A DNA stretch of 48,070 nt from a virus, in the IMG/VR virus record IMGVR_UViG_3300007512_000062, positions 1 to 48,070 of that record. One strand, written 5' to 3'. The notes below the pieces were generated by a model. That model was not told where the DNA came from. It saw only the letters and a program-made list of their open reading frames with translations, and searched no databases. Positions 19,799 to 41,227 of this stretch are shown here, piece by piece. The position numbers and the translations under genes are program-made. Every line of letters starts with the position of its first letter. Within the stretch, counting starts at the first letter, position 1.

Positions 19799-19817
19799 GA
19801 GGGTACGGAGTACCCTC
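19799..19817 (-). promoter_or_regulatory. Early hairpin promoter for the SSB unit
   Basis: GAGGGTAC-GGA-GTACCCTC, a perfect 8-bp stem with a GGA loop closed by C-G. The + strand is the template for leftward transcription, and N4 P2 has the same C-GGA-G core on its template strand. With the loop centre (19808) as -11, the start falls near 19797; position -8 is A, a purine as N4 vRNAP requires. The stem is one pair longer than the N4 range I recall. Confidence 0.75.
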
Positions 19818-19875
19818 ATATATAAAATATGTTGTGTTAAATAAGTATAGAGATTTTCCTATTTTAGCTTTTTTT

Positions 19876-19885
19876 GTTATATAAT
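19876..19885 (+). promoter_or_regulatory. Rightward -10 element GTTATATAAT before a leaderless gene
   Basis: Perfect TATAAT at 19880-19885, nine bases before the ATG at 19895, so the RNA would begin almost at the start codon. The same ten bases occur before the ATG at 41733. No clear -35 box lies at the usual distance. It is the only visible promoter for the two + strand genes inside the leftward block. Confidence 0.55.
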
Positions 19886-19894
19886 GCCACTACT

Positions 19895-20275
19895 ATGAGC
19901 GGATTTGAAGATATTAAAGGGTTAAAGTTACCAGGTGTTGATGCTAAAGGTAACTTTCCTAGTAAACACCCCCAATTTATTACACAAAATGGGAAATCTG
20001 TAATTAACCCTGCTTGGAATAAAGACCAAGCTATCTTACGTGAACAAGCTAAAGAAGTAGTTCGTATGAATCAGCAAGATATTATGAAAGATGCTGCTCG
20101 TCACGAAAAGAATATGTATAAACCTAAACCTCAGAATACTGGTTTTAGATTCCCAGGAGGAACTAAATTACCAGGCGTGTTAGGTATTCCTTTCTTACTG
20201 CAAGACTTTATGCATTTATATAACTTACAAACAGCTCCAGAAATCTTACCATCAGGTGCCCCTAAAGAAATATGA
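19895..20275 (+). CDS. Orphan-orientation protein 1, unknown function
   Basis: 126 residues from the ATG at 19895 (a TTG seven codons upstream overlaps the promoter and is less likely). No ribosome binding site precedes it, and TATAAT ends nine bases before the ATG, which points to a leaderless mRNA. The N half is polar and basic (KHPQFITQNGK, AKEVVRMNQQD). The C half has a Gly/Pro-rich hydrophobic segment (FPGGTKLPGVLGIPFLLQDF). It faces against its neighbours SSB and the 163-aa gene. Its sequence style resembles the internal virion proteins more than replication genes, but no family was recognised. Confidence 0.65.
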   Translation: MSGFEDIKGLKLPGVDAKGNFPSKHPQFITQNGKSVINPAWNKDQAILREQAKEVVRMNQQDIMKDAARHEKNMYKPKPQNTGFRFPGGTKLPGVLGIPFLLQDFMHLYNLQTAPEILPSGAPKEI

Positions 20276-20658
20276 CCTCTGATGAATTAAAGCAGTTATC
20301 TCTTAATACTTTAGCAGGAGCATCTGCTGCACAAGCTGCAGATATGACCAGACATGCTTTAACAGGTAAAGGTCAGTCATGGTTACCTAATTCTATGGCA
20401 GCTAAACAAGGTATTCCTAATCCTTCCACTACTAATTGGTGGAAAGCAGGTAAACTTCCTATGAACCTTCAAGGTTCTTTTATGGGAGCTAAACCAACAG
20501 TAGGTGGTACTCTAGGTCTTGCAGCACTTGCAGGATATGGGGGTTACAAGTTAGGTGATTGGTTTATCAATACTAATGTTGCTGATTCTATAGGATTAGG
20601 TAGAAAAGATCTAGAAGGCTATGGTTCTTACCTAGCAAATCTTAAATTACCTAAATAG
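20272..20658 (+). CDS. Orphan-orientation protein 2, one membrane segment
   Basis: 128 residues, start overlapping the previous stop (ATGA). The N half is Ala/Met-rich and helical. Residues about 76-100 (VGGTLGLAALAGYGGYKLGDWF) form a Gly-zipper-like membrane helix. The stop abuts the stop of the convergent 163-aa gene with no spacer. With its partner it forms an independent two-gene rightward unit; superinfection exclusion, an ejected virion component or lysis are all possible, and nothing in the sequence decides between them. Confidence 0.65.
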   Translation: MTSDELKQLSLNTLAGASAAQAADMTRHALTGKGQSWLPNSMAAKQGIPNPSTTNWWKAGKLPMNLQGSFMGAKPTVGGTLGLAALAGYGGYKLGDWFINTNVADSIGLGRKDLEGYGSYLANLKLPK

Positions 20659-21150
20659 TTATTCCATACTTTCAACAAAGTTTTTCCAAGCTTTGTCATC
20701 TTTAATCTGTTCTAGTAAACTACTGTCTTGAAATACATCAGTAGTAAAGTAGTTACCATCAGTAGCTTTTACAATATCATCATATAAAGCATACCATTCA
20801 GTATCTAAGTCAAATTGATTAAACAGCTTATTTGAAGTCTGTAATGAAAGTAGTTTATTAGTTCCTTTTACTTTGATTCCTCTAGTATCTTTACGAATAC
20901 CAAATCTAGTAAACGATTTATTAAAAGTTATCATTACTGAATCATCATGGTGTAACCCTAATTTTTCAATAGCATTTGCGTGGAAACGCACATAAATACT
21001 ATTATTTTTATGTTGAGCATACTGTTTGATAGTAATATCAATTGCTTGTACGATATCTCCCATTAGTAAATTAAAATCTAAGTTTTCTGTAGATACTCCT
21101 AGATCATTAGGTATTTTTGATTTGAAATTACGGTCTTTAATAAATCCCAT
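20659..21150 (-). CDS. Conserved-looking protein of unknown function
   Basis: 163 residues; start preceded by TAGGAGAATAAT. Mixed alpha/beta composition with no membrane segment or Cys cluster. Residues 60-95 (KLGLHHDDSVMITFNKSFTRFGIRKDT) look like a compact beta-rich domain, and the C terminus is acidic. It is downstream of the 69-aa gene by one base, so the two form an operon in the early/middle block. I recognise no family. Confidence 0.65.
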   Translation of the reverse strand: MGFIKDRNFKSKIPNDLGVSTENLDFNLLMGDIVQAIDITIKQYAQHKNNSIYVRFHANAIEKLGLHHDDSVMITFNKSFTRFGIRKDTRGIKVKGTNKLLSLQTSNKLFNQFDLDTEWYALYDDIVKATDGNYFTTDVFQDSSLLEQIKDDKAWKNFVESME

Positions 21151-21151
21151 A

Positions 21152-21361
21152 TTATTCTCCTAAATGCGTATAACGTTCTTTCATAATCTCATTTACAATG
21201 TGCCAACTAATCTGGGCAACATCAGTTGCATCACAGTAATTACGAGCAGCTATCACAGGTGCTATAGCTAAAACTAATTTATCTTCTAGTTTCATGTCTT
21301 CTGTACCTGTTACTTGTTTGAACAATTTAAGTTGTTCAGGGGTCAGTTCTTTCTTCACCAT
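21152..21361 (-). CDS. 69-aa helical protein
   Basis: Starts at the ATG at 21361, set by AGGAG eight bases upstream; an earlier in-frame ATG at 21394 has no such site and overlaps an inverted repeat. The product is acidic and helical (LTPEQLKLFKQVTGTEDMKLEDKL, then a Cys/Asp segment and ISWHIVNEIMKE). It is unrecognised. It is preceded by a 9-codon leader ORF and a long-range inverted repeat that may control it. Confidence 0.6.
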   Translation of the reverse strand: MVKKELTPEQLKLFKQVTGTEDMKLEDKLVLAIAPVIAARNYCDATDVAQISWHIVNEIMKERYTHLGE

Positions 21362-21375
21362 ATTTGGATCTCCTG

Positions 21376-21405
21376 TTATAATGTGAGTGTCCACCAGGTT
21401 TTCAT
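21376..21405 (-). CDS. 9-codon leader ORF, MKTWWTLTL
   Basis: ATG at 21405 with an excellent ribosome binding site (AAGGAG, ATATTT spacer), nine codons, then TAA. It contains tandem Trp codons. Its codons 3-7 lie in the right arm of an 11-bp inverted repeat, and its ribosome binding site lies in the loop. The stop is 14 bases before the 69-aa gene start. This arrangement resembles a translated leader controlling the next gene; the role is inferred. Confidence 0.4.
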   Translation of the reverse strand: MKTWWTLTL

Positions 21406-21454
21406 AAATATCTCCTTATTACTTTAAAACCCATAAAAGTATACTGGTGGACAC
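21387..21454. repeat. 11-bp inverted repeat around the leader ORF
   Basis: GTGTCCACCAG at 21387-21397 and CTGGTGGACAC at 21444-21454, perfect complements separated by 46 bases. In the leftward RNA the pair would enclose the leader ribosome binding site in a loop and occlude its Trp codons. It could alternatively be a protein-binding operator. Confidence 0.6.
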
Positions 21455-21915
21455 CTGTATATTATGTAAAGAGATATATAGTTTGAATTAGAGTGCCTCT
21501 ACAAATAGGAAAGTAGAGGACTAACATTTACGATGTTTCTAACGATATAAACCTAATTGAGGGAGAACGTCATAGATCGAACTTACGTTTGGATCAACTA
21601 GTTTATACTGAGGGTAGTTATTTTCATAATAGCCACCATCCCTCTATACGCTATTGTAGATTATATAATAGTAGTGCCTAACAACATAGATACCAGTACA
21701 CTACTACACTCCCCTCTACACAGGGATAAAACATTATTACTGGTACCTTTTACATTAATGCCCCTTTTTTACAGGGGACTAGTGATTAATATCCCTTCAG
21801 ATAAGGGCAGCCCCAACAATCGAGGAGTGATCCATAAGGTAGATCATGTTGATCTGCCCCTGCAGCTGATTTAATGGCTCTAATCTGCGTAACCTTGGCT
21901 ATCATACCACGATAC
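21406..21915. other. 510-base intergenic region with many small hairpins
   Basis: No credible protein gene. A 66-codon + strand frame (21674-21874) has no ribosome binding site and is built over hairpin arms. Visible items are CCTCTAC/GTAGAGG (21496-21519), a TTATATAAT box at 21661-21669, then five or more nested hairpins to 21858. No early-type C-GGA-G hairpin is present. It separates the 134-aa repeat protein from the leader-controlled operon. Confidence 0.6.
21661..21870 (+). ncRNA. Candidate structured RNA with its own TATAAT box
   Basis: TTATATAAT at 21661-21669 could start a rightward RNA near 21676. What follows is dense in complementary pairs: TACCAGTA (21691) with TACTGGTA (21738), enclosing CCCT/AGGG (21712/21722); CCCCT/AGGGG (21761/21773); CCCTT/AAGGG (21793/21803); and GGTAGATCA-tgt-TGATCTGCC (21838-21858, nine pairs with one G-T). 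No terminator T-run was found. Either strand could carry the structure, and the strand is inferred from the TATAAT box only. Confidence 0.3.
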
Positions 21916-22320
21916 TTAAGTAGCTTTATTAATTAATTTCCAGAAACCATCTGGGTCAAAGTACATACGTTGTTTAATGATACTAGGTACTGATTTTTCT
22001 TTTTTACGTGTCTTAGTATGTCTAGGTGCTAATACCTTTTTAGGATCTGTATAACAAGATAACCTAGTAGCAGCAGTAGACATTGGAATACTTAAAGCTT
22101 CAGATAATGAAGCAGCATTCCATTTAGTGCCATCATCTAAAGTGTAAAACCTCCCGCCTTTATGGGTTTTATTAACTTTACGATAAACTAACTTAGGATC
22201 TTTCGATGCCATTAATCTTGCATAGGCAGTACTAACACTGCACCCTAATTGTTCACTAAGCTGGTTAGTTGTAATAACAGTACCATCATCTAATGTGAAT
22301 TCTAAATTTTTACTGCCCAC
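21916..22320 (-). CDS. Tandem-repeat DNA-binding-like protein
   Basis: 134 residues, GTG start set by CAGGAG six bases upstream. It consists of two copies of one unit: residues 7-46 (FTLDDGTVITTNQLSEQLG, STAYARL, DPKLVYRK) and 57-98 (YTLDDGTKWNAASLSEALS, STAATRL, DPKKVLAPR). Each unit has a short beta hairpin then a helix-turn-helix-like LSExLxxxxSTAxxRL, followed by a basic stretch (RHTKTRKKEK). This suggests a duplicated DNA-reading module and a regulatory role in the replication block. The family assignment is inference from the repeat pattern. Confidence 0.7.
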   Translation of the reverse strand: MGSKNLEFTLDDGTVITTNQLSEQLGCSVSTAYARLMASKDPKLVYRKVNKTHKGGRFYTLDDGTKWNAASLSEALSIPMSTAATRLSCYTDPKKVLAPRHTKTRKKEKSVPSIIKQRMYFDPDGFWKLINKAT

Positions 22321-22322
22321 AG

Positions 22323-22406
22323 TTACTCCTGGAAGTCGTTAATAATTAAATAAATAAGCCATGCTTGGTATAGAATACTTGCCCCAACTAGGTATTCAAA
22401 TAACAT
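22323..22406 (-). CDS. 27-aa membrane miniprotein
   Basis: ATG at 22406, 27 codons, with AGGGGA at suitable distance upstream. The peptide is one hydrophobic helix (LFEYLVGASILYQAWLIYLI) with a polar C terminus. It fills the gap between two genes, and its last codons contain the CAGGAG that serves the next GTG start, so it may also act as a coupling ORF. Confidence 0.5.
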   Translation of the reverse strand: MLFEYLVGASILYQAWLIYLIINDFQE

Positions 22407-22407
22407 A

Positions 22408-22710
22408 TTAGTCCCCTTGTGTAGGTATTAACCAATACACACGTTTATCAATGGAATCTACTTGACTCTCAATTAAAACACTCTGTTTAAGTTCTAATAC
22501 TGCACGTTTGATTGTAGATATTGATTTATCTGCAAAATACGGATTATGTACAATAGATGAAATATTTGCTTTGTTCGCTGCTATGTAGATAAAGATATCT
22601 TTAGCTGTATTACTTAAATCATATTTATCTAAAGCTTCATCTACTTCAGCTTTAACTAATTGTTTCTTACGCCAAATTTGCGCAATATTTTTTAATGCTC
22701 GATTTTTCAT
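22408..22710 (-). CDS. Winged-helix DNA-binding protein
   Basis: 100 residues; start set by AAGGAG upstream. The N terminus is basic and helical (KNIAQIWRKKQLVK). Residues 35-95 give a helix, a recognition-helix candidate (DKSISTIKRAVLELKQ) and a two-strand wing (VLIESQVDSIDKRVYWLIP). It is likely a small transcription or replication regulator, since it is followed by a membrane miniprotein and the tandem-repeat protein. The 124 bases upstream hold only a weak GGCAGT/ACTGCC inverted repeat. Confidence 0.6.
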   Translation of the reverse strand: MKNRALKNIAQIWRKKQLVKAEVDEALDKYDLSNTAKDIFIYIAANKANISSIVHNPYFADKSISTIKRAVLELKQSVLIESQVDSIDKRVYWLIPTQGD

Positions 22711-22834
22711 TTTTCTCCTTAATTAGAAGGCAGTCTTAGTTAAAGTCATAAACTGCCAAAATGACTAGCAACTTGAGTTTAATTTATAGTCCTCGTCTAC
22801 TAAAGGCTAAACTCTGCATATTTACATAAACACC

Positions 22835-25723: not shown

Positions 25724-25726
25724 GAA

Positions 25727-25996: not shown

Positions 25997-26005
25997 CTTA
26001 TCTCC

Positions 26006-27315: not shown

Positions 27316-29766
27316 CTATAACGATTTTAAAATTTTATCTACTTCTTCTAGTGAAGCTCTATTAGGCAATAATGTCATATCTGCCCAAGATTTGCCTATA
27401 TCTAAATCACTTAACATAGGAATATCATCTGACTGAATGAGCGGATGCTCATTCCATTCCATTTCTTCAATTAGAACATCGTTAAGGAATTTAACTACCT
27501 TAGGGTCATCTTTTACTAAGAAATAGGCAGCATCGTGAATCATGTTAACAGGAAGGATATCTGCATACATTTCTGCTTCTTCGATCCTTTGATTCGTAGC
27601 GATTACTGCTCTATTAAGTAGCATCCCCCAGGATTGTGTAACTGCATTGTTAGCACTACGTACTTCTGCAGTTGCTGCATATGGAGTCTTTTTATTATCC
27701 ATTACAGACTTACTAATAATAGGTGTCTTAATTTTTAACCCAAAAGCACATTCCATGTAGCCATGTTTAATAGCAAATTTCTTGTTCTTTTCAGCAAACT
27801 CATCAGATACCTTATATAGTTCATGATAACTATCTTCAATTTCTTTAGCTTCCTTCAATGGGATACCAGCATTCTTATTTAAAGTGAACGCTGTACCTCC
27901 ATAAGTTAAAGCAAATGTAGGTCCTTTACCTTTTTGTCTAAGTTCCTTGTATTTACTAGAAATTGAATTAATACTATCTACATCTTCTGGGTCTATGTCA
28001 GCCATTTGGTCTTTAAAATATGCGTATGCATTTAGACAGTGACTGTCATAACCTTGAGTATAAATCTTAATTCTATTAGGGTCTCCAGATACAATTGCAT
28101 TAATTCTAGCTTCTAGAGCATTGAAATCTGCACCTGCAAATAACCACCCTTCAGGAGCTACAACACAGCTTTTAATTAACTTACCCATCTTACCTTGTGC
28201 AGGTAGATTAGTTAAATTAGGTGAATTACTAGATAGTCTTCCTGATTGTGTTCCACCTAATTTTAGATTACCATGTAAAAAGTTATTTCCAGCTTTAAAA
28301 GCTTTAAGAAATGTACCTGTTATTTTAGATACTTCTGCAATTTTAAGAATACCCTCTATAATTTCAAGAGCTTCTGTATTTTGAGTCTCTTTCTTAAGTT
28401 TTTTAAGTGTTTTAGCATCAGTAGCTGGACTACCTCCAGCAGTTATATCTAATACAGGTAGCTTTAGTATTTCGAAGAGTATTGTTGCTATTTGCTTTCC
28501 TGAACTTGGGTTAAATTGAATATACTGAAAATCTTCAATAGACTTTACTTTAGTTTTTAATTTAGCATTAGCTTGTTCTCGTGCTTGTTCTTGAAATATT
28601 TGATCAGCTTTTTGGATAGTAGGTAATTTATGTAACTTTACACGTACTGCATATTCTTCATCTTTTAGTTGTTTGTATACTGTATCTACTACTGCTTGGT
28701 CTAGTGGTAAGCCTACTAACATCATTTTAAGAATAGGCTTAATACTAGGCTTGAATATATCAATATACGTTTCACTAGTAAGTTGGTTACTATATTTGTT
28801 ATAAACAAACCATGTAGCTAACGTATCAATTAGATTGTATTTCATTAATTCTTCAGAAGTATGTTTAGTAATATCTTTTACATCTAAAGCATAATTTCCT
28901 ACATATTCAAGAGCATTGCCTTTAAGCCCTAAATCTACTTGAGTAGTAGAGTTCTTTTCTAAATAAGCAAGTAACATGGTGTCGTCTACTTGACTAAATA
29001 CTTCAAGACCTTCTTGCAATCCTTTGTAGTCAGTTTCAGATTCCATCCACCAATTAGCTATCATTAGCTTAGCATCAAATAATGCATTGTGCATAATTAA
29101 AGTACCTGAGTAATTTACTAGGAATTCTTTAATATTCCAGTAACCAGTTTCTCTAATATCAATAGCAACACCATTATGTTGATCCCATGCAAAAGCAATA
29201 GTAACAATAGTGTCTGTTAATTTAAGTCCTGTGGTTTCAATATCTACAGTCAGTGCTGGGTATTGGTATAGTTGATCTAAAATATCTAACTCAGTACCTA
29301 GAACTTTAGTGTATTCTTCAGAATGTATGACAGCTTTTTTAGTAAAGCCTGTAATAGCTTTAAGTCCTATATCAATTAGTAATTGATTTTCAGGCTGTTT
29401 ATACAATGATTTGTAGTGAGGTACATGTACACACCTAAAGTCTTCATATTCGTCAAATTTACTCAGTACAGCAGTACCTACATGTGTGGATACCTTTGTA
29501 TTTTTAGTTAACCACTTGTAGTAGTTACTGTCTGCAACAATTAAGTTAGTTACAGTAGTAGGAATTTGTTCCCTTAATTTAGTTAACCATGCTTTACCTA
29601 CTTTAGCAGATACTTTTTTAGGTGTATCGTATATTAGTGGTTTAGCTATTATAGAATCTCTAGCTATACCTAATTTTTCTAAAGGAGCATAGTAGTATTC
29701 ATTTAACGAATATTCATCTATCCCACCTCTCTCATTAATGAGAAGTACGGTAGTAATTGGTTTCAT
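27316..29766 (-). CDS. Family A DNA polymerase with 3'-5' exonuclease
   Basis: 816 residues. The proofreading domain has LTVDIETTG (D175, E177), the exo II helix HNALFDAK, and YNLIDTLAT for exo III. The polymerase domain has motif A FAGADFNALEAR with D547, the O-helix RxxxKxxxFxxxYG with F618 at the position of E. coli Pol I F762, and motif C MIHDAAYF with D745. The protein is of N4 gp39 type and is the replicative polymerase. Phe at the O-helix position differs from Tyr in T7. It lies downstream of the MoxR-VWA pair and upstream of nuclease and primase in one leftward unit. Confidence 0.95.
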   Translation of the reverse strand: MKPITTVLLINERGGIDEYSLNEYYYAPLEKLGIARDSIIAKPLIYDTPKKVSAKVGKAWLTKLREQIPTTVTNLIVADSNYYKWLTKNTKVSTHVGTAVLSKFDEYEDFRCVHVPHYKSLYKQPENQLLIDIGLKAITGFTKKAVIHSEEYTKVLGTELDILDQLYQYPALTVDIETTGLKLTDTIVTIAFAWDQHNGVAIDIRETGYWNIKEFLVNYSGTLIMHNALFDAKLMIANWWMESETDYKGLQEGLEVFSQVDDTMLLAYLEKNSTTQVDLGLKGNALEYVGNYALDVKDITKHTSEELMKYNLIDTLATWFVYNKYSNQLTSETYIDIFKPSIKPILKMMLVGLPLDQAVVDTVYKQLKDEEYAVRVKLHKLPTIQKADQIFQEQAREQANAKLKTKVKSIEDFQYIQFNPSSGKQIATILFEILKLPVLDITAGGSPATDAKTLKKLKKETQNTEALEIIEGILKIAEVSKITGTFLKAFKAGNNFLHGNLKLGGTQSGRLSSNSPNLTNLPAQGKMGKLIKSCVVAPEGWLFAGADFNALEARINAIVSGDPNRIKIYTQGYDSHCLNAYAYFKDQMADIDPEDVDSINSISSKYKELRQKGKGPTFALTYGGTAFTLNKNAGIPLKEAKEIEDSYHELYKVSDEFAEKNKKFAIKHGYMECAFGLKIKTPIISKSVMDNKKTPYAATAEVRSANNAVTQSWGMLLNRAVIATNQRIEEAEMYADILPVNMIHDAAYFLVKDDPKVVKFLNDVLIEEMEWNEHPLIQSDDIPMLSDLDIGKSWADMTLLPNRASLEEVDKILKSL

Positions 29767-29771: not shown

Positions 29772-29960
29772 TTAATGTAATACTTTAGGTGGCTTTGAAA
29801 GTAAATCCAATATTTTTTCAGCTTTATCTAAATATTCTTCTTTATGCTGTGTGTAAAACTCTAAAGCTTCTTTTTTTGAAAAAGAAGTAGAAGTCTGTTC
29901 AATAGCACCCATGTAATACTCAAAGCATAATGCTTGAGATAATGTAATGATTTCAGTCAT
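29772..29960 (-). CDS. 62-aa helical protein
   Basis: 62 residues, start overlapping the VWA gene stop, five bases before the polymerase start. Predicted to be all helical, acidic then basic (KKEALEFYTQHKEEYLDKAEKILDLL). Tight packing between the VWA gene and polymerase supports a real gene. No family was recognised. Confidence 0.6.
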   Translation of the reverse strand: MTEIITLSQALCFEYYMGAIEQTSTSFSKKEALEFYTQHKEEYLDKAEKILDLLSKPPKVLH

Positions 29961-31089
29961 TGATATAAATAGTCTCCCCTATTACTGCAGGCTCATGATC
30001 TGAGTTGCATACCCATAAAACATCATATTCTACATTATTTTGTACAGGCTCTGCGTATAAATCCGTGAAGTAGATTAGTATGTTAGGAGGATTATCTTTA
30101 CAATATTCAAATACAGGATCGAAAGAAGTACCCCCTTCACCTTTAAATTGGATATCATGAATATCTGTATATTTATCTACTTTATGTACACCATGTATAA
30201 TGTAATCACAGTCAATTACTACTAGTTCTTCTGGCTGATAGGTATCTCTAATACTTTCAATTTCAGTTAGCATTTCAGTTAGTTCTTCTTGTGTAACTGA
30301 ACCTGAAGTATCAATAGCAATAGTGATATTTCCAATTGTTTCAGAATACATGCTAGGCAAGTAATGATTAGGCATAAACCTTTTATTAGGTCTCATCCAT
30401 GTAAAGTCATTCTTACTGCGTTCACTTACATACCTATCTAATAACTGTTTCCAATCTAATTTAGGATTAATTAGATCATCAATCATTCTAGCTACTTCCC
30501 CAGGGATTTCACCTTGTTGTTTACCAGCCATCATGGATTGTGTCTGTGCTTGTACAATAATACTAGTTAATTGCTCTTTTAGCTTATCAGTACCTTGTGC
30601 AGTATTTTGAGAATCTTGATCATTAGTAGATCCTTCACCAGGTTCTAAGATATCTTGTACAAAGTTTTTATATTGATCTTGCTCTTCAAATATGATGTCA
30701 TACACTTGCTCAGTAGTCATATCAGCATATTTACTATCATGCAAACCATCAGCAGGTAATTTAAAATTTGCTTTAAGTAGCATATCATTAATTACGTAGT
30801 CACCAGCAACGTTCCATAAGCGCTTATCTCTATTTCCTACTCTTGTAATATGTTGGAATGCTACGTGCCACACTTCGTGTGCCAGTAGCCCAGTAAGCTC
30901 TTCTGTATCAATAGAAGCTACGAAATCAGGATTGTATAGAATAGTAAGTCCATTAGTACCTGCTGTAGGTATTACATCTGAAATTTCATGACGTAATCGA
31001 AGACATATAGTAGATAGAAACACAGATTTAGACATTAACTGCACTTTGGCATACCTAATTCTGTCTTCTAAAGTTTTGTTTGTCTCCAT
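29953..31089 (-). CDS. VWA-domain protein with metallopeptidase-like domain
   Basis: 378 residues. The N-terminal domain carries HEVWH at 71-75 inside LLAHEVWHVAFQH, the DUF2201-type metallopeptidase-like region. A polar linker covers about 148-195. The C-terminal VWA domain has a complete MIDAS start, DTSGS at 260-264, and a later FKGEGGTSFDP with the conserved Gly-Thr. N4-like phages carry this protein beside a MoxR ATPase, and the two are four bases apart here. MoxR-VWA pairs usually act as a metal- or partner-loading chaperone; the target in these phages is unknown. Confidence 0.85.
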   Translation of the reverse strand: METNKTLEDRIRYAKVQLMSKSVFLSTICLRLRHEISDVIPTAGTNGLTILYNPDFVASIDTEELTGLLAHEVWHVAFQHITRVGNRDKRLWNVAGDYVINDMLLKANFKLPADGLHDSKYADMTTEQVYDIIFEEQDQYKNFVQDILEPGEGSTNDQDSQNTAQGTDKLKEQLTSIIVQAQTQSMMAGKQQGEIPGEVARMIDDLINPKLDWKQLLDRYVSERSKNDFTWMRPNKRFMPNHYLPSMYSETIGNITIAIDTSGSVTQEELTEMLTEIESIRDTYQPEELVVIDCDYIIHGVHKVDKYTDIHDIQFKGEGGTSFDPVFEYCKDNPPNILIYFTDLYAEPVQNNVEYDVLWVCNSDHEPAVIGETIYIND

Positions 31090-31093
31090 AGTA

Positions 31094-32122
31094 TTATCCT
31101 ACCATTAAGTGTGCATTCTTATTTACCCAATCTAAAATTAATTGATGTCCTTTTAATGCAGGTGTTTTACTATATACATCTTTTAATGTAAGTAATTGCA
31201 TTTCAGGAGGTAGTTTATTAACTACAACTAGTAATTGTGTAATATTTTGTTCATTCATATTATGACTAACTAGAGTAGTTAAAGCGTATTGTTTATCTGG
31301 TTCATCTGGCATCTGAATTCCATGAGGATTTTGTAACATATCCTCAATAGTAGGTAGAGATTCATAAATCTCGCAGTATGCTTTAAATTCAGTAGCAGGT
31401 CCTTGACCTACAGTACCCGACATTAATACATAGTCTGTATAGTCAAAGTCTTCTCTTGAAGCAATAATATCTGACAAGAAGCTCCAAGTTCTAGGACATG
31501 CAAACGTATCATCACTATGATTAGGATCAAATGTATGTAGACGCTCAGGTCTAAATTTAATAAATGAAATTACTCTATGATCAATACCGTTTGTATTAGC
31601 CCACTCTAACCAGTCCTTGTGACTTACAGATAGATTCATATGAATTAATCTAGACTGCATAGCTGTACTTAATTTGTTAACTACTGCCTTATCAGTCTTT
31701 TTATTACCAGCACATACAATCCAAGTATTAGGGTGTAATTCATATTCTCCTACCATACGATCCAGTACAACTTTATAAGCTGCTGATTGTAGATTAGGGG
31801 TAGCTGAATTCATCTCATCTAAAAAGATTAGCCAACCATTCTTACCTTCAGGAATTTTATCAATACCTTTTAATGGAAATAATGATGGTGGTGCGTATTT
31901 CATACGTATACCTGCTTTATCTACAATAGGAAATCCTAGTAGATCAGTAGGGTCTGCTTGTGCTAACCTTAGGTCACGTACTTCTACATTAACTGATTTA
32001 GCTAAATCATTAATAATGTCTGATTTACCAATTCCTGGGCTACCTACAAGCATAGGTACTTTATCTGCTTTAAATAAGCGTTTTAAGCCTTCTGAGGCAT
32101 CTTTAGGTGTGATATCTAACAT
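31094..32122 (-). CDS. MoxR-like AAA+ ATPase
   Basis: 342 residues. Walker A is GSPGIGKS at 27-34, Walker B is WLIFLDEMN with D102-E103, the sensor strand is NTWIVCAGNKK, and the arginine-finger region has MQSRLIH. The layout is that of MoxR/RavA AAA+ proteins. It lies directly upstream of the VWA gene with which MoxR proteins cooperate, and has its N4 counterpart in the same relative place. It probably remodels a phage or host complex early in infection. Confidence 0.9.
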   Translation of the reverse strand: MLDITPKDASEGLKRLFKADKVPMLVGSPGIGKSDIINDLAKSVNVEVRDLRLAQADPTDLLGFPIVDKAGIRMKYAPPSLFPLKGIDKIPEGKNGWLIFLDEMNSATPNLQSAAYKVVLDRMVGEYELHPNTWIVCAGNKKTDKAVVNKLSTAMQSRLIHMNLSVSHKDWLEWANTNGIDHRVISFIKFRPERLHTFDPNHSDDTFACPRTWSFLSDIIASREDFDYTDYVLMSGTVGQGPATEFKAYCEIYESLPTIEDMLQNPHGIQMPDEPDKQYALTTLVSHNMNEQNITQLLVVVNKLPPEMQLLTLKDVYSKTPALKGHQLILDWVNKNAHLMVG

Positions 32123-32123
32123 A

Positions 32124-32714
32124 CTAATTCTCCAGAATATTTAAGGTAACTCTTTGTTGCATAGAAGATGTTGGTGCATCAGGAACTACTTCTTCTTTTA
32201 CTTGTTTAGCTTTACGTGGTGCACGTTTAGGTTCTTCAGGAATATACTTATGAAGCATTTCAGGCCACCCTTTACGTAATTTAGTAGTAGTATTCCAAGT
32301 ATCCAAAGAATCATTTAAGTACTGTTTCATTTCTTGCATTTCTTTTTGCAAATCAGTATCTTGTTGGTGTAGTGTAGATACTTCTTCTTCATGTTCTCTA
32401 GGAACAGTAAAAGGAATTTCCAAAGGTCTCCACTCATCTTTTGGGTCTACTGTTGCTAAATAATAATGAGGATTACGTTTTGTATACCAACGTTCGCTTT
32501 CTTCCTCATTTACTAACATTTGCACTTTATGTTTATGATGAAAAAATCCAGCAGGTAATTTTGAAATATATGGAGTATAGTATGAAATCCATGTTTCATA
32601 ACATTTAGTAGTTAGTTCTGTTTTAGCTGTTTCAATTTTAGTTGTAGGCAGATTAAATAAATCATTCATAATATCTTGTTGAATGCTATATTGGGCTTGT
32701 TGTCCTAATCGCAT
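32124..32714 (-). CDS. 196-aa protein upstream of MoxR, unknown
   Basis: 196 residues, ending one base before the MoxR start and beginning inside the 62-aa gene. Residues 40-100 are aromatic-rich (CYETWISYYTPYISKLP, then YYLATVDPKDEWRPLEIPF), residues 105-145 are a coiled-coil-like Glu/Gln helix, and the C terminus is basic (KRAPRKAKQVKEE). It probably belongs functionally with MoxR and VWA because of the tight spacing. No enzyme motif was seen. Confidence 0.65.
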   Translation of the reverse strand: MRLGQQAQYSIQQDIMNDLFNLPTTKIETAKTELTTKCYETWISYYTPYISKLPAGFFHHKHKVQMLVNEEESERWYTKRNPHYYLATVDPKDEWRPLEIPFTVPREHEEEVSTLHQQDTDLQKEMQEMKQYLNDSLDTWNTTTKLRKGWPEMLHKYIPEEPKRAPRKAKQVKEEVVPDAPTSSMQQRVTLNILEN

Positions 32715-32893
32715 GACGGCTCCTCGTAAAGTAATTGTTTAATTGTAATAAGTAACTCATCTATTTGGTCTTCTTGAATTAATGTTGCATTAAATGTTAA
32801 TTGCAGTATGTCTTCAGAGAGTTCTTCTACTTTATAGACGAGTTGATTTTCAGAATCTAATACTTTAAATTCTGTTTGGTTTTCTTCTAGCAT
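32705..32893 (-). CDS. 62-aa acidic protein, first gene after an early hairpin promoter
   Basis: 62 residues; start preceded by AAGGAGCTATTA. Strongly acidic (LEENQTEFKVLDSE, VEELSEDILQL), ending in EEPSCD. It begins about 15 bases after the predicted start of the hairpin promoter at 32912-32926, and its end overlaps the 196-aa gene. Small acidic first genes of early phage units often act on host proteins; here that is only a suggestion. Confidence 0.65.
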   Translation of the reverse strand: MLEENQTEFKVLDSENQLVYKVEELSEDILQLTFNATLIQEDQIDELLITIKQLLYEEPSCD

Positions 32894-32911: not shown

Positions 32912-32926
32912 AGGAACGGAGTTCCT
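32912..32926 (-). promoter_or_regulatory. Early hairpin promoter upstream of the MoxR-VWA-polymerase unit
   Basis: AGGAAC-GGA-GTTCCT, 6-bp stem, GGA loop, C-G closing pair on the + (template) strand. The loop centre 32919 at -11 puts the start at 32907-32908; -8 is A. The stop codon of the 58-aa zinc-ribbon gene lies inside the right arm, so the promoter sits at a gene junction. Confidence 0.75.
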
Positions 32927-34899: not shown

Positions 34900-34908
34900 A
34901 ATATTCTC

Positions 34909-35073: not shown

Positions 35074-35075
35074 AA

Positions 35076-35432: not shown

Positions 35433-35434
35433 TT

Positions 35435-35626: not shown

Positions 35627-35629
35627 TAG

Positions 35630-35911: not shown

Positions 35912-35913
35912 AG

Positions 35914-36165
35914 TTAGTCCTCATCAAAGTTTATAATTGTGTGTTCTGGTTCTAGAAGTAAGAAGGTTTGATTCACTTGGTTATTTAGATAAAAAGTGTG
36001 TTCTTCTCCAAATTCAAAACCATGATTACAATATACCTTACGTGAACCTGGGTGCCCTTTTGAAGTACTAACTACTACATGCTTTGTAAATTCACATTTC
36101 CCTCTATCAGTGGGAATTAGTAATCCCATTCCAGGAACAATATCAAATATATCAATAGCATTCAT
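35914..36165 (-). CDS. 83-aa beta-rich protein
   Basis: 83 residues, start overlapping the helicase stop (ATGA). It begins AIDIFDIVPGMGLLIPTDRG and has several short strands. Small beta-barrel proteins after phage helicases are common, but no motif identifies this one. Confidence 0.6.
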   Translation of the reverse strand: MNAIDIFDIVPGMGLLIPTDRGKCEFTKHVVVSTSKGHPGSRKVYCNHGFEFGEEHTFYLNNQVNQTFLLLEPEHTIINFDED

Positions 36166-37550
36166 CTAACTAATACTAACTGTTGCAGTGCTCGTGTACA
36201 TGCTACATAATATAAGTTATCTTCCTGTTGCTGTTCCCATTCCACATTTGTTCTTGTTTTTAGATAATCACAAATATCAGGATTAATGAAGAATACTGTG
36301 TCTGTTTCTAAACCCTTACTTGCATGAATTGTCATTAACTTTCTCTTACTTGCACTATCTTCGTGTAACTTCATAGATTTAATAAAAGTTTTAACTTCTG
36401 CAATTGTGTTGCATCTATCTAAGATAGCAAAAATACCTGAGTATCTGTCATTTAATGCAGCAGTGTTCCAGTTCTTAGATTCATAAATCTGAAGTATCTT
36501 ATGATACTGTGCTTTTGTGTTATCAATTAATGTGTCAATACGACTATTTGTCTTCAGTAGTGGCTTTAGTTCTTTCTCTAATTGAGCTATAAACATTCTA
36601 CCAATTGAGAATTTAATATCTTTCTTGATAAACTGGTAAGCTAGTTTAATCAGTGAAGAATTAGTTCTACTAATAATAAAACAGTCATCAGGGTATTGTA
36701 TACTATGTGCGTATTTTTGCTGTAATACTCCTCCTGTCTTTTGACTAGTGATATGAGGAACTCTACTATGTACTATTGATAGTATTTCCTGAGGACATCT
36801 AAAACTCTCATACATAGGATATTCTTTAGGATTGTATCCTTGTTTAATTAGATCAATAGCATGAGGATCACTACCTCTAAATCCATAAATAGCTTGATGA
36901 GCATCTCCTACAAATACTATCTTGTTTGTTGGTATACAATTCAAGAACTTAATTTGTTGAGGATTTAAATCCTGGCACTCATCTACAAGTACCATATCGT
37001 ACTTTTCTGTTTTCATTCCTAATCGCATAGGGTATTCCAACATTTCATCACCACTAATTTCAGTAGTGTGCATTAATCCCTGTTTCAGGAATACTTTAGC
37101 ATCTTCAATTAGATTAGAAGCAATATTAAATCTATCACACGTTGCTTCCCATGATTTATCACTGGCATTACCTCCTAGTGTCATGTGCTTTTGTGCAAGA
37201 TTTGCAGCTACATCATAGTTAAATAGCTTTGAATATTTTTTAAAATTTACTTTACTAGATTTAAATTTACTGTGTTGTTTCAACATAGAAAGGCCTAGTG
37301 AGTTGAAAGTCTTACAACTCCAACCCATAGGTAACTTATCAACTACATCATTTACAATTGCCTTATTAAACGCTAAATATAGCCCATTACTAGTTGTATT
37401 AGCTAATTGCATAAGTACAGAAGTCTTTCCTGATCCTGCTACAGCATTCACAATAATCGCAGATTCCGTACTATTAATAATATCTTGCTGCTCTTGAGTA
37501 AAGTTTATAGCAGGTGCAGAACTGCCAAAATTAAATGCAAAATTATTCAT
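36162..37550 (-). CDS. UvrD/Rep-like superfamily 1 DNA helicase
   Basis: 462 residues. Motif I is AGSGKT at 38-43, motif II is VDECQD at 189-194, motif III is VGDAHQAIYGFRG, motif IV is ESFRCPQE, motif V is TIHASKGLETD, and motif VI is YYVACTRALQQLV. The TRAL end and KGLE are UvrD/Rep features. N4 has a Dda-like helicase in the same map position. It would unwind DNA 3' to 5' during replication or recombination; the polarity is inferred from the UvrD-type motifs. Its start overlaps the 68-aa gene by eight bases. Confidence 0.9.
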   Translation of the reverse strand: MNNFAFNFGSSAPAINFTQEQQDIINSTESAIIVNAVAGSGKTSVLMQLANTTSNGLYLAFNKAIVNDVVDKLPMGWSCKTFNSLGLSMLKQHSKFKSSKVNFKKYSKLFNYDVAANLAQKHMTLGGNASDKSWEATCDRFNIASNLIEDAKVFLKQGLMHTTEISGDEMLEYPMRLGMKTEKYDMVLVDECQDLNPQQIKFLNCIPTNKIVFVGDAHQAIYGFRGSDPHAIDLIKQGYNPKEYPMYESFRCPQEILSIVHSRVPHITSQKTGGVLQQKYAHSIQYPDDCFIISRTNSSLIKLAYQFIKKDIKFSIGRMFIAQLEKELKPLLKTNSRIDTLIDNTKAQYHKILQIYESKNWNTAALNDRYSGIFAILDRCNTIAEVKTFIKSMKLHEDSASKRKLMTIHASKGLETDTVFFINPDICDYLKTRTNVEWEQQQEDNLYYVACTRALQQLVLVR

Positions 37551-37749
37551 GTAACATCCTTTCAGTCATATGTAAGTCATTTTGTCTTCTTGCCTGACAC
37601 ATTGTAGGATTATGTAATCCTTCTACTAGAGTCCCATATTTCTCAATAGAGAGTAGATTAAGTCTACACCCCTGTCTAGTATGATTTATACATCCTAAAT
37701 GGGTACAATGCTTAATTTCAAAGTGTGAGTAGTGAAGTTTAGATGACAT
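37543..37749 (-). CDS. 68-aa His/Cys-rich protein
   Basis: 68 residues, with C15, C20 and C28 and several His (HFEIKHCTHLGCINHTRQGC), then a later Cys in PTMCQARR. This looks like a small zinc-binding protein. It directly precedes the helicase and overlaps it. The ribosome binding site is weak. Confidence 0.6.
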   Translation of the reverse strand: MSSKLHYSHFEIKHCTHLGCINHTRQGCRLNLLSIEKYGTLVEGLHNPTMCQARRQNDLHMTERMLHE

Positions 37750-37796
37750 TGTGTGTTTTCAATATTAATTATAGCAGTTAGTCTTTCGTCTAACAA

Positions 37797-37925
37797 TTAT
37801 TCGAAATCTACAGAAGTAAAGTAAATTGTTGCTTTTTTAGCTTCAAATGGGATATCTAAATGTTGGCATAGTTGTACCCAACAATCCCCTATAAAGTCTT
37901 GTTTAAAAATAATTAATTGTTGCAT
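37797..37925 (-). CDS. 42-aa early protein
   Basis: ATG at 37925 with AAAAAGGAAATGAA upstream, 42 codons. Sequence MQQLIIFKQDFIGDCW then an acidic end (FTSVDFE). It is the first gene after the hairpin promoter at 37953-37969. After the stop there is a hairpin with a GAAA tetraloop (37774-37791) but no T-run. Confidence 0.6.
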   Translation of the reverse strand: MQQLIIFKQDFIGDCWVQLCQHLDIPFEAKKATIYFTSVDFE

Positions 37926-37952
37926 TTCATTTCCTTTTTATTAATTCACATT

Positions 37953-37969
37953 AGTGGACGGAGTCCACT
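37953..37969 (-). promoter_or_regulatory. Early hairpin promoter downstream of the RNAP gene
   Basis: AGTGGAC-GGA-GTCCACT, 7-bp stem, GGA loop, C-G closing pair on the + (template) strand. Predicted start 37949-37950; -8 is A. It lies just after the RNAP terminator, so transcription is reset here for the helicase and small-gene unit. Confidence 0.75.
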
Positions 37970-37996
37970 TCGTACTTTCAACCACCAACTCATAAT

Positions 37997-38032
37997 AAAA
38001 AAAATAACCCCCTATACCTTACGGCATAGGGG
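37997..38032 (-). terminator. Intrinsic terminator after the phage RNAP gene
   Basis: In the leftward RNA a 10-bp stem CCCCTATGCC/GGTATAGGGG with a GTAA tetraloop, then TTATTTTTTTT (eight T at 38004-37997). It starts seven bases after the RNAP stop. Confidence 0.9.
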
Positions 38033-38038
38033 ATTTTG

Positions 38039-39814
38039 TTAACTTAACATGTATTGACTACTTAGAATATCAACATCTAAATCATTAGACGCTTTAGTAA
38101 CTGGTACATGATGTCCTTTTAACTCACTAAGGATATCACTCAATAGATTACTTCTAGCTATTTCAGCCATAATCTCTTTATACATACCTGTTACTGTTCT
38201 TAAGTAATTAGGGTGGAATACAAAGCAATCATGGATATGTACTAATTCAAAGTCTGCACGTCTTACCATTTCTCTAGCTATATAACCATCAACACTGTGA
38301 ACAATGTTAGCTACAAGGCTTCTATAGTTATTACTAGGTGTTTGCTTAGCGTATCTATAAGTAAACGTTCTATGGTTTAACTCATCTACTTCAATACGAG
38401 TATCAGTCATTTCCATAACTTTAACTTTAGCAACATGCCCATCTGGTAGAGTCCACTGATGTACATCAGCATCGTAGTTCCAGAAGTCATTGATAGTAGA
38501 CATCATAGCTTCAGCACCTTCAAAAGAATCATCTAATACTTTATAGAATACTTCTAACTGTTCCTCTGTAAAGGTATTAGCAGGATTAGCTTGTGAATTA
38601 TAGTAATGAGTCATGATAGGCTTCTTAACTAACTTTCTATCAACAGTATTATTTAAGTGCTTATTCATTTCATCAGCTACCATTTCGTAAAGGTCTTCAC
38701 GTTTACCTGTATCAACCATATTACAAGCTTTAGCAGTCTTCTTACAGCCTGTAAGCGCTGCCATAACCTGTAAACCACTAGCTGTAGCATCTAAGGACAT
38801 TGTATAACCTGTAGCTTTACCATCTAAGGTATCTTGATAAGCTCTAATAGCCTTTCTACCTAAGATAGGTTCATCCCAATCTTTAGTTTCAAAGGTATCA
38901 TTCTGAGCATTAAACCACTGTATACGTTCTCTCCAAGTTAACTTATCATGTCCTGCATGATTAGCAATAGCTATCTTAAGGTTAACAAGTTTAGTAATAA
39001 CTTCTTTATTATGAAGAGATAACAAAGCTTTACCATATTCATTAGATTGAATATTAAGGTCATAGCCACTGCTGTAACTACGCCCACGCTTATCAAATCT
39101 CCATACAAAGTAGAAAGGCATACCAATATACTCTGATGCTATTGTTAAGAACTGATCAGGATCCATAGCAATATTACTATTAGTTTCATTTAGTAACACA
39201 TCTGGGTCTATCTCCCATGGTACTGTCTGTAATTTATTTAAAGCATCTAAGGCTTGAGGTTCTTCATGGTGATTACCCTTACCAAGCAGTACACTCTTTT
39301 GTTCGAATAACCAGCCACCAGTATTGTTGTCTACCCATTCTTGAGGTACTTCTTTCATAGGCGGTAAGAACTGAAGCATATCTAGTTTATGCCTAGTATC
39401 AGTTTCTACTATCAATTTAGGTTTAACCTCTGTACCATCTGTATACAGCAGGATGTCAAATAAGCCTGTATTAGCTGTTACTGCTAATAACTCTGCACCA
39501 GTCTTAACTGCATCAACAGGGTTTCTCATACCTACATCAAAGCCTATAGAAGTAGCTGGGTCTTGAATAGGACGCTGTCTATCAGTCTTAAGAATGTTAT
39601 AAAAGATAGCATTAACTACTTTATTAGTTTTCTTTAGGTGTTTAATACGTAGGTTCTTAGAATCATAGTACTTAGCACTTCTATAATTAGATACTGCTTG
39701 TAGTACATCCATGTATAACTTAACTGGTAATTCTCTGTTAAGGTCTTCTAAGATAATGCTTTGAGTTTGTTGCTTGCTATATTGTTGTTCTGTTTGTAAT
39801 TGATTAGTTTCCAT
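38039..39814 (-). CDS. Single-chain phage RNA polymerase, N4 RNAPII-type
   Basis: 591 residues; start set by CAGAGG. Complete T7-family catalytic set: WRFDKRGRSY (R243-R245), motif A MSLDATASG with D342, motif B R393xxxK397 with Y405 (RKLVKKPIMTHYYNS), motif C HIHDCFVF with D529. It lacks most of the T7 N-terminal domain, as N4 RNAPII does. In N4 this enzyme is two proteins (gp15 and gp16); here one ORF holds everything. It would transcribe middle genes after vRNAP makes it. It is bounded by intrinsic terminators on both sides and has no hairpin promoter of its own, so it is expressed by read-through. Confidence 0.95.
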   Translation of the reverse strand: METNQLQTEQQYSKQQTQSIILEDLNRELPVKLYMDVLQAVSNYRSAKYYDSKNLRIKHLKKTNKVVNAIFYNILKTDRQRPIQDPATSIGFDVGMRNPVDAVKTGAELLAVTANTGLFDILLYTDGTEVKPKLIVETDTRHKLDMLQFLPPMKEVPQEWVDNNTGGWLFEQKSVLLGKGNHHEEPQALDALNKLQTVPWEIDPDVLLNETNSNIAMDPDQFLTIASEYIGMPFYFVWRFDKRGRSYSSGYDLNIQSNEYGKALLSLHNKEVITKLVNLKIAIANHAGHDKLTWRERIQWFNAQNDTFETKDWDEPILGRKAIRAYQDTLDGKATGYTMSLDATASGLQVMAALTGCKKTAKACNMVDTGKREDLYEMVADEMNKHLNNTVDRKLVKKPIMTHYYNSQANPANTFTEEQLEVFYKVLDDSFEGAEAMMSTINDFWNYDADVHQWTLPDGHVAKVKVMEMTDTRIEVDELNHRTFTYRYAKQTPSNNYRSLVANIVHSVDGYIAREMVRRADFELVHIHDCFVFHPNYLRTVTGMYKEIMAEIARSNLLSDILSELKGHHVPVTKASNDLDVDILSSQYMLS

Positions 39815-39838
39815 ACTATCCTCTGTTTGTTAATTAAT

Positions 39839-39880
39839 AAAAAAAATATAAACCTTAAGAGCTATGACACTCTTAAGGCT
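39839..39880 (-). terminator. Intrinsic terminator just before the RNAP gene
   Basis: Leftward RNA: CCTTAAGAG/CTCTTAAGG 9-bp stem (extended by one wobble and one A-T pair), 8-base loop, then TTTATATTTTTTTT. It follows the 154-aa gene and precedes the RNAP start by 25 bases, so it attenuates RNAP expression. Confidence 0.85.
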
Positions 39881-39890
39881 TAATTAGATG

Positions 39891-40355
39891 TTACAAGTTA
39901 CCTACAAGTACTTGTGCATCTGCAGTTGTTAGATGTTTAACAACCTGTTCTGGTTTAACAGCCTCTAACTCTGTCATCATATTACTAATTGTTAGAGCTT
40001 TCTGCTCTTCAGAACTAGTTTCAGTTAGTTCATTATCATAGTAATTGATAAAACCCATACCAACGTATTTACCAGCGTGCTCACCTTTAACAGGTTTAAC
40101 TTTAACTTGGAAGTTAGTATATACCTTGCCATTAACTTTCCTAGGCTTGGTAGTAGTGAACAATACATCGTTAGTTAGATTATTAGTAATAATCTTAAGT
40201 ACTAAGTCTGTATTAAGTACGTTAGCTGTTGCCTCACTGTTAGGTGTGAAAACACAACTTCTTTCATCATCTAAATAGATGTTGTAGTACTCTTGGTTGT
40301 TTTGCTTTTTAGTGTTTTTAGTCTCTGCAGACTTATCAACTAATGTTATAGCCAT
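39891..40355 (-). CDS. 154-aa early protein upstream of RNAP
   Basis: 154 residues; start preceded by AAGGAAATAAAATC. Lys/Thr/Asn-rich N terminus, then a beta-rich centre (EYYNIYLDDERSCVFTP, DVLFTTTKPRKVNGKVYTNFQVKVKP) and an acidic helical C terminus. It lies directly upstream of the RNAP gene. N4 RNAPII needs a small ssDNA-binding helper (gp2, Drc) made early; size, beta character and position make this gene a candidate, but no motif proves it. Confidence 0.65.
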   Translation of the reverse strand: MAITLVDKSAETKNTKKQNNQEYYNIYLDDERSCVFTPNSEATANVLNTDLVLKIITNNLTNDVLFTTTKPRKVNGKVYTNFQVKVKPVKGEHAGKYVGMGFINYYDNELTETSSEEQKALTISNMMTELEAVKPEQVVKHLTTADAQVLVGNL

Positions 40356-40506
40356 GATTTTATTTCCTTATGAAATTACTACCTATATTGAGATTAAGAG
40401 TATTAGCAGGTAGTTAAAACTAATATTCTTTATTAAATACTTTCTGGGTACTATCCTTTAGTTAAAAAGGAAATGAGCAGTTTTGAATCATGCTTAGGAT
40501 ATTGGG

Positions 40507-40764
40507 TTATGCTTTCTTTGTAGTCTTAGAATTGATTTCAGTGATGTTACCGTTGTCATCAATACATACGTTATGCTCGATTAAGAAGTCTGCTAATTCT
40601 TGCTTAGCCTCTACTCTATTCATAACTAATGATTGCTCAAGGCTCTCATTAATGATTGACATTGTATTTCTGGTTGATGCTCTTAGACCCTGTTCACCTG
40701 TGAGTTCATCTACTAAACCTAAAACGTTAACAATTGAATTACTTAAATGTTTCCATATTTTCAT
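40507..40764 (-). CDS. 85-aa early protein
   Basis: 85 residues; start set by AGGAGCAACAT. Predicted all helical, with a basic end (NSKTTKKA). It is the first gene after the hairpin promoter at 40821-40833. The 150 bases between it and the 154-aa gene hold two short inverted repeats (CCTTT/AAAGG, ACTACCT/AGGTAGT) and no promoter I can recognise, so both genes are probably one unit. Confidence 0.65.
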   Translation of the reverse strand: MKIWKHLSNSIVNVLGLVDELTGEQGLRASTRNTMSIINESLEQSLVMNRVEAKQELADFLIEHNVCIDDNGNITEINSKTTKKA

Positions 40765-40820
40765 ATGTTGCTCCTATTAATGTATATAAAGTTATATATA
40801 AAGTATATATAACGCCTGAC

Positions 40821-40833
40821 GTGACGAAGTCAC
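40821..40833 (-). promoter_or_regulatory. Early hairpin promoter, GAA-loop type
   Basis: GTGAC-GAA-GTCAC, 5-bp stem on the + (template) strand. Loop centre 40827 at -11 puts +1 at C40816 and +2 at C40815, so the RNA starts GG, exactly as at N4 P2. -8 is A. The flank (GCCTGAC before the stem) closely matches the promoter at 41213. Confidence 0.8.
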
Positions 40834-40887
40834 CCTATCCTATGTGTAGTCTGTGTGTCTATCTTTTGTGTGATGTGTGGTGTGTGT

Positions 40888-40926
40888 AAAAAAAAGGTAT
40901 GTCCCAACACCCGAAGGTGCTGAGAC
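40888..40926 (-). terminator. Intrinsic terminator with UUCG tetraloop
   Basis: Leftward RNA: GUCUCAGCACC-UUCG-GGUGUUGGGAC, an 11-bp stem counting two G-U pairs, then ATACC and eight T. It ends the first early unit eleven bases after the 76-aa gene. Confidence 0.9.
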
Positions 40927-40936
40927 ATTGCATTCG

Positions 40937-41167
40937 TTAGAATGCAGGCTCTTCGTCAGAAGAGTCAACTTTACCTGTAAGTAAAGCATTAACACCATTA
41001 GGTGCTTGCTTGTCTTTCCAGGCAGTTAAGGTAATATCATAATCACCACCAGTTAAGATGGTAATTAAGTTATCAACATTTACATCAGCACCAGACACAC
41101 TGATGTTCACTCCCTTAAGTTCTGTACCTGAAGCAAGGATGTTGTAGTTTTTGTATGATTTAGCCAT
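40937..41167 (-). CDS. 76-aa first early protein
   Basis: 76 residues; start set by TAGGAG. Beta-rich with repeated Val/Asn/Gly (ELKGVNISVSGADVNVDNL), then a polar acidic tail (VDSSDEEPAF). It forms a complete unit: hairpin promoter 46 bases upstream and UUCG terminator just after. Its place next to the presumed genome end makes it the first gene made by vRNAP. It may target the host; no family was recognised. Confidence 0.7.
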   Translation of the reverse strand: MAKSYKNYNILASGTELKGVNISVSGADVNVDNLITILTGGDYDITLTAWKDKQAPNGVNALLTGKVDSSDEEPAF

Positions 41168-41212
41168 GATAGACTCCTATTTAGTTAAAAGATGACACAA
41201 AATTATGCCAGG

Positions 41213-41227
41213 CGTGACGAAGTCACG
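41213..41227 (-). promoter_or_regulatory. First early hairpin promoter
   Basis: CGTGAC-GAA-GTCACG, 6-bp stem, GAA loop, C-G closing pair on the + (template) strand. +1 falls at C41209 and +2 at C41208 (GG start in RNA), -8 is A. It drives the 76-aa gene. Confidence 0.8.

Follow-up and report, generated by a model that had tools for sequence, protein, structure and literature searches.

Template-strand hairpins of two spacing classes lie on either side of the RNAPII gene in a divergent schitovirus and its relatives

We analysed a viral sequence of 48,070 nucleotides (nt), the complete IMG/VR record IMGVR_UViG_3300007512_000062, classed as linear and called here the window, with attention to five small DNA hairpins that stand ahead of its leftward early and replication genes and resemble the promoters read by the virion RNA polymerase (vRNAP) of phage N4. 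The replication and early genes of the window follow the order known from N4 and run leftward from about 41.2 to 18.2 kilobases (kb; Table 1). Judged by this gene content the phage is a divergent schitovirus, since it carries the family's markers: the vRNAP homologue (phrog_2206), T7-like RNAPII (phrog_2051/2166), primase (phrog_2135), SSB (phrog_743) and the DUF2201/ATPase pair, and a DNA polymerase of family A is encoded as well. The nearest cultured phages have primases with about 47% identity to that of the window, and DNA-level BLAST of the early region found no match among phages. IMG/VR holds near-identical records of the phage as well as relatives at 50-75% identity. The virion polymerase that N4-type promoters presuppose is supplied by the open reading frame (ORF) of 2713 amino acids (aa), which in alignment retains the residues equivalent to N4 K437, R440, E557 and D559 of the active site; for the N4 promoter-contact residues K114, R119, W129, D901 and R904 no usable vRNAP alignment was obtained, even in Pollock.

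A scan of the 30-kb early and middle part of the window for the core C-GRA-G, with a stem of at least 5 base pairs (bp), returned five matches on the template strand, which are the five hairpins of Table 1 and the only ones there, and one match on the other strand. In 300 dinucleotide shuffles the mean was 0.043 matches and five were never reached. All five sites combine a perfect stem with a C-G closing pair and a G-purine-A loop, and their computed energies (-2.2 to -6.2 kcal/mol) match the -2.7 to -6.1 kcal/mol of the N4 promoters P1-P3. An earlier note on this DNA had listed five perfect hairpins on the strand that leftward genes use as template, had read CC at the predicted +1/+2 of the two sites with GAA loops, and had named equally many such hairpins at random sites as evidence against its view; hairpins, positions, strand and CC were all found as described, and the shuffles show no such random abundance. 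A role as terminators was rejected for the five hairpins, as no T run lies beside any of them in either direction. The single other-strand match, a C-GAA-G hairpin at 30869-30881, overlies the stretch of the DUF2201 metallopeptidase gene that codes for HExxH, and relatives repeat it at that place; by its position it is accounted for by coding and serves as a negative control.

Table 1. Hairpins, terminators and genes of the window; all transcription start positions are predictions from sequence.
Feature	Position	Strand	Details
Class I hairpin CGTGAC-GAA-GTCACG	41213..41227	leftward; + strand = template	6 bp; predicted start 41209, template CC at 41209/41208; layout as N4 P1-P3
Early ORF, 76 aa	40937..41167	-	beneath first hairpin
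Strong intrinsic terminator	40899..40928	-	ends unit 1; 13 pairs, then T7
Class I hairpin GTGAC-GAA-GTCAC	40821..40833	leftward; + strand = template	5 bp; predicted start 40816, template CC
Two early ORFs	39891..40764	-	beneath second hairpin; 85 aa (40507-40764) and 154 aa (39891-40355)
RNAPII	38039..39814	-	one fused 591-aa chain (gp15-like + gp16-like)
Strong intrinsic terminator	38006..38035	-	right behind RNAPII
Class II hairpin AGTGGAC-GGA-GTCCACT	37953..37969	leftward; + strand = template	7 bp; predicted start 37947; 82 nt past RNAPII stop
Middle operon	36162..37925	-	downstream of 37953 hairpin; 42-aa and 68-aa ORFs, UvrD-like helicase (36162-37550)
Class II hairpin AGGAAC-GGA-GTTCCT	32912..32926	leftward; + strand = template	6 bp; predicted start 32905
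Middle operon	29953..32893	-	62-aa ORF, 196-aa ORF, AAA ATPase, DUF2201 metallopeptidase
DNA polymerase A	27316-29766		next after DUF2201 operon
Class II hairpin GAGGGTAC-GGA-GTACCCTC	19799..19817	leftward; + strand = template	8 bp; predicted start 19794
SSB, Holliday junction resolvase, 98-aa ORF	18256..19729	-	beneath third class II hairpin
Virion RNA polymerase homologue	9972..18113	+	2713 aa; phrog_2206, E 5e-194

The two GAA sites have the location expected of N4-type vRNAP promoters, at the first-injected end and ahead of the early genes; the GGA sites follow at a distance of 3 to 21 kb, ahead of the replication operons. RNAPII and three small early proteins are the products of the units headed by the former, and those headed by the latter encode the helicase, the ATPase/DUF2201/DNA polymerase group, and SSB with the resolvase. 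Each of the two strong terminators is followed by a hairpin, that of unit 1 by the 40821 site and that of RNAPII by the 37953 site. With the first loop base numbered -10, as throughout, the template CC needed for a start at 10 nt from the loop is available at 41213 and 40821 and not at 37953, 32912 or 19799.

The same scan run over 50 kb of N4 with a 4-bp threshold recovered P1 (97), P2 (566) and P3 (4555) together with one other-strand match, and the P1 core found in this way matches the published P1 template sequence (PMC12633501). N4 P1-P3 share with the window sites a hairpin on the template strand, a 5-7-bp stem, a G-purine-A loop and a C-G closing pair. The GAA sites resemble them in two further properties: CC stands at +1/+2, and the hairpins precede the first genes and the unit with RNAPII. 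The GGA sites, in contrast, lack CC at +1/+2, keep a G at -6 and an A at -3, and lie up to 21 kb downstream, before replication genes. The -8 base is G in all three N4 promoters, where it is contacted by vRNAP residue R904, whereas it is A at all five window sites; among relatives it varies, and Pollock and K481 show this even at their early sites of class I. The GGA sites also invite comparison with the N4 middle promoters, which serve RNAPII: in both, replication genes would be driven once RNAPII is made, and the A/T-rich stretch between class II stem and predicted start recalls the minimal -7..+2 promoter of N4 (PMC4496689). Unlike the class II sites, none of the N4 middle promoters has been described with a hairpin. 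Set against the features of N4 RNAPII promoters (an AT-rich -7..+2 segment and the proteins gp1 and gp2), the window has an A-rich spacer and an RNAPII, and BLASTP detected no similarity of its 76-aa, 85-aa and 154-aa early proteins to gp1 or to gp2-like proteins.

We then turned to the wider family, using a comparison set of about 110 related genomes and fragments. In the early and middle regions of 26 schitoviruses, the window excluded, every triloop hairpin of at least 6 bp was tallied by closing pair and loop, with no prior choice of type. The commonest types on the template strand were C-GGA-G (42 against 1 on the other strand), C-GAA-G (28 against 4) and C-GTA-G (16 against 3), giving 86 against 8 when pooled, while C-GCA-G had no strand bias (3 against 4). 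As the bias holds for GGA, GAA and GTA loops and is missing for GCA, the loop can be written GNA, with N not C. The number of hairpins per genome ranged from none to about 14 and was not always the three of N4.

The position of start-like bases relative to these loops changes at the RNAPII gene. CC within +1..+3 was present at 28 of 42 sites before RNAPII genes and at only 3 of 50 after them, and pyrimidines at +4/+5 without CC were found at 3 of 42 and 33 of 50, respectively. The spacing rule had been derived from a first data set and was tested on 89 new RNAPII-centred loci. In the held-out phages with a heterodimer-type RNAPII, CC occurred at 44 of 76 sites before and 1 of 33 after the gene (p about 1e-8), and +4/+5 pyrimidines at 8 of 76 and 18 of 33. 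In the held-out relatives with a fused RNAPII, all 12 sites after the gene were C-GGA-G with +4/+5 pyrimidines; only four sites preceded it, and none had CC. Related sites in all these counts are only partly independent, but each of four lineages (Pollock/Pylas, pYD6A, K481 and that of the window) shows the switch at RNAPII on its own. The distance before RNAPII drifts, from +1 in Pollock and Pylas to +2 at all five K481 sites and up to +3 in pYD6A; in Pollock, Pylas, pYD6A and the window clade the distance after it clusters at +4.

The hairpins thus form two classes across Schitoviridae, class I before the RNAPII gene and class II after it, before the replication genes. By their sequence the two GAA sites of the window belong to class I, and its three sites with GGA loops belong to class II, in which the start-like pyrimidines stand three bases further from the loop. 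The earlier note was right that the loops divide into two types; the division is real, extends beyond the loop to start spacing, stem and flanking bases and genomic position, and recurs across the family. Its interpretation of the elements as N4-type hairpin promoters is well supported, and vRNAP is the natural reader for the GAA pair. We find no support, however, for its grouping of all five into a single family of early vRNAP promoters, given the different spacing of the GGA sites, their -6 G and -3 A and their position after RNAPII. The description as sites before early genes fits the GAA pair alone, the GGA sites preceding the UvrD-helicase, ATPase/DUF2201/DNA-polymerase and SSB operons. 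Its starts for the GGA sites (37950, 32908 and 19797) are probably three bases off, the comparative data fitting 37947, 32905 and 19794, and the purine that it saw at -8 is indeed present at all five sites, as A, but can be any base in relatives and so makes no family rule.

The window sites are conserved in its relatives. A hairpin follows the RNAPII stop codon in 19 of 19 relatives, at about 64-109 nt; in the 15 distinct sequences every cell of the stem is paired, five of the six pairs have changed on both sides, and none of 500 shuffles reached the covariation score. Upstream of SSB, at 78-103 nt, each of the seven window-clade members with readable sequence has the hairpin, and most outgroups lack it. 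Of the clade's 32 distinct class II sites, 32 have G at -6, 31 have A at -3, 32 have a pyrimidine at +4 and 27 have T at +5, and the -8 base was free. Support for class I inside the window consists of two sites, near-identical records not being independent and the early loops of readable relatives being different: in genome G001 (L110), whose RNAPII is 71% identical, the sites before RNAPII (2151, 2389 and 2810) have GTA loops and the four after it all have GGA. Early sites in pVa5 are likewise mostly of the GTA type. Class II-like hairpins closed by T-A, such as ATGGCT-GGA-AGCCAT and CCGTTT-GGA-AAACGG, were noted after RNAPII in L180 and upstream of the homologue of the 196-aa ORF in L188, L185 and L181; closure by C-G is thus no strict requirement of class II.

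The RNAPII of the window and of about 20 relatives is a single fused chain. Species with a vRNAP have been reported to encode a two-subunit RNAPII in all but two cases (PMC4496689), and from its sequences the window clade is a real single-chain exception. Near the N-terminus the fused protein carries the motif YYDSKNLR (residues 49-56), in which Y49, Y50, S52, K53 and R56 are invariant in the clade. The general form [YF]x[ST]KxxR tends to occur with class II hairpins, and N4 and its close kin are without it. Among the held-out loci, a hairpin after RNAPII was found in 28 of 35 with the motif compared with 7 of 54 without; variant forms of the motif are present in three of these seven exceptions, and another is without the RNAPII N-terminus. 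On the tree, motif and class II were lost jointly only a few times (the N4 group, the G006/G009 group, pVa5 and L198), and its shape points to an old origin of class II and a loss in N4. A phylogenetic independent-pairs test of motif against class II went in the right direction, with only three supported pairs. The AlphaFold model of the fused chain (mean predicted local distance difference test score, pLDDT, 58) matches only N4 RNAPII chain B and T7 RNAP in fold.

The most likely reading of these patterns is that class I hairpins are read by vRNAP and that class II hairpins are middle promoters, probably read by RNAPII. In both cases the template strand would fold into a small d(GNA) hairpin recognised by a T7-like phage RNA polymerase. 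At 41213 and 40821 the injected vRNAP would bind the extruded hairpin and start on template CC, at a distance of 10 nt from the loop's first base, to give the early mRNAs, including that for RNAPII. The sites at 37953, 32912 and 19799 combine a GGA loop with A at -3 and a G:C pair that is invariant at -6; their predicted start, on template Y-T and 13 nt from the loop, would restart transcription past the terminator behind RNAPII and drive the replication operons. Taken as a whole, we consider this two-class model probable. The siting of the class switch at RNAPII genes suggests RNAPII as the class II reader, and a class I distance that drifts while that of class II clusters at +4 favours RNAPII as a separate reader, as does the joint occurrence of class II and the N-terminal motif. 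Several observations weigh against this. The sites after RNAPII in XC38 and LIT1 fit the +4 rule poorly, no class II hairpin was found after RNAPII in N4 by the same scan, and seven motif-bearing held-out loci yielded no hairpin in the stretch examined. Motif and class II change jointly at only about 3-6 independent places on the tree, too few for significance, and the RNAPII model is too poor to place the motif. N4 P2 and P3 have GGA loops and yet are read by vRNAP, so that GGA alone is compatible with that enzyme. Finally, N4 RNAPII is reported to use AT-rich -7..+2 promoters and has no sequence specificity on naked single-stranded DNA (PMC4496689). We are evenly divided on the stronger proposal that RNAPII reads class II, that ancestral schitoviruses had two hairpin-reading polymerases with different start distances, and that N4, as the sole model studied, lost both the middle hairpin and the N-terminal element of RNAPII.

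All five hairpins might instead be vRNAP promoters, the GGA class being a second vRNAP architecture deeper in the genome that perhaps restarts the enzyme to keep pulling DNA in. The common d(GNA)/C-G core, the loops of P2 and P3 and the vRNAP gene of the window agree with this, but start-like bases at another distance, other conserved bases, a strict switch at RNAPII in many lineages, class I and class II distances that fail to change in step and the location of the N4 vRNAP promoters at the first-injected genome end (PMC4496689) do not, and we judge it rather unlikely. That the GGA elements act in the mRNA 5' leader as stem-loops with a UCC loop, in translation control or processing, would explain their closeness to start codons, and an RNA element would give an equal strand bias. 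However, the distance to the start codon ranges from tens to over 200 nt, the fixed +4/+5 pyrimidines are conserved outside the stem, the sites come after terminators, GCA loops are avoided and the core is that of proven DNA promoters, which makes such a role improbable. Even less credible is a function as single-stranded DNA signals in replication, whether for priming or for attachment of phage SSB or gp2, that stand before operons by chance: class II does precede replication genes, and single-stranded DNA-binding proteins are cofactors of N4 transcription (PMC4496689), but there are several hairpins per genome, each heading an operon, gene-oriented and with start-like sequence at a fixed distance. 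Chance in an AT-rich genome, to which some 200 triloop hairpins of at least 5 bp with any loop in the window might point, is refuted by the counts, namely the shuffle expectation for the core, the strand bias in 26 genomes and the conservation with covariation at the orthologous site in every relative.

To our knowledge, hairpin promoters are known in detail solely from the three N4 sites. In N4-like phages, early hairpin promoters are known or predicted at three per genome (PMC3715699, PMC6027278, PMC4496689), those of N4 being constrained to the first-injected genome end (PMC4496689). For the Pseudomonas phages LUZ7/LIT1 (PMC3715699) and the CB1-like Pectobacterium phages (PMC6027278) the reports, which treat the early region only, give predicted early hairpins with 4-5-bp stems and 3-nt loops, in LUZ7/LIT1 before genes 1, 12 and 13 (PMC3715699). 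Unlike that account of LUZ7, we find class II hairpins in it also before gp23 (loop 8246) and gp29 (loop 9530). A second spacing class at middle genes was not found reported in the open-access literature, and class II, before the replication genes, appears to be a previously undescribed kind. If the model is true, class II would be an undescribed way to start middle transcription in a good part of this large family of phages. A concrete hypothesis for how RNAPII finds its promoters would also follow; in N4 the matter is unclear, as the enzyme is non-specific on naked single-stranded DNA. Base-level starts can be predicted for many cultured phages, among them LUZ7 (8259 and 9543 of NC_013691), Pollock, Pylas and pYD6A. 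In the E. coli phage Pollock, class I sites lie at 68, 689, 1508, 1560 and 3835 and class II sites at 9216, 10018, 15881 and 18168.

The leaders predicted from 37947 and 32905 contain ribosome-binding sequences ahead of ATG; that from 32905 would comprise about 12 nt with AAGGAG, followed by ATG at 32893. At the 19799 hairpin, 78 nt separate the loop from the position at which SSB probably starts (19729). The SSB leader contains, between its predicted start and the ATG, a perfect 12-bp inverted repeat, AATTTACAATTA / TAATTGTAAATT, with a 9-nt loop (19761-19793, minus strand), possibly an autoregulation site. Immediately downstream of the predicted start at 40816 is a 10-bp AT-rich hairpin, GTTATATATA-AAG-TATATATAAC (40791-40813), and the mRNA of unit 2 would therefore open with a stem-loop. 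A terminator-like hairpin with a T run (39849-39882, minus strand) lies between the 154-aa ORF and RNAPII in a gap without a further hairpin promoter, and RNAPII expression may depend on read-through of it. Adjoining the SSB promoter, two rightward ORFs of 133 and 128 aa, unassigned to any family, are situated at 19874-20658 (plus strand) within the leftward middle block.

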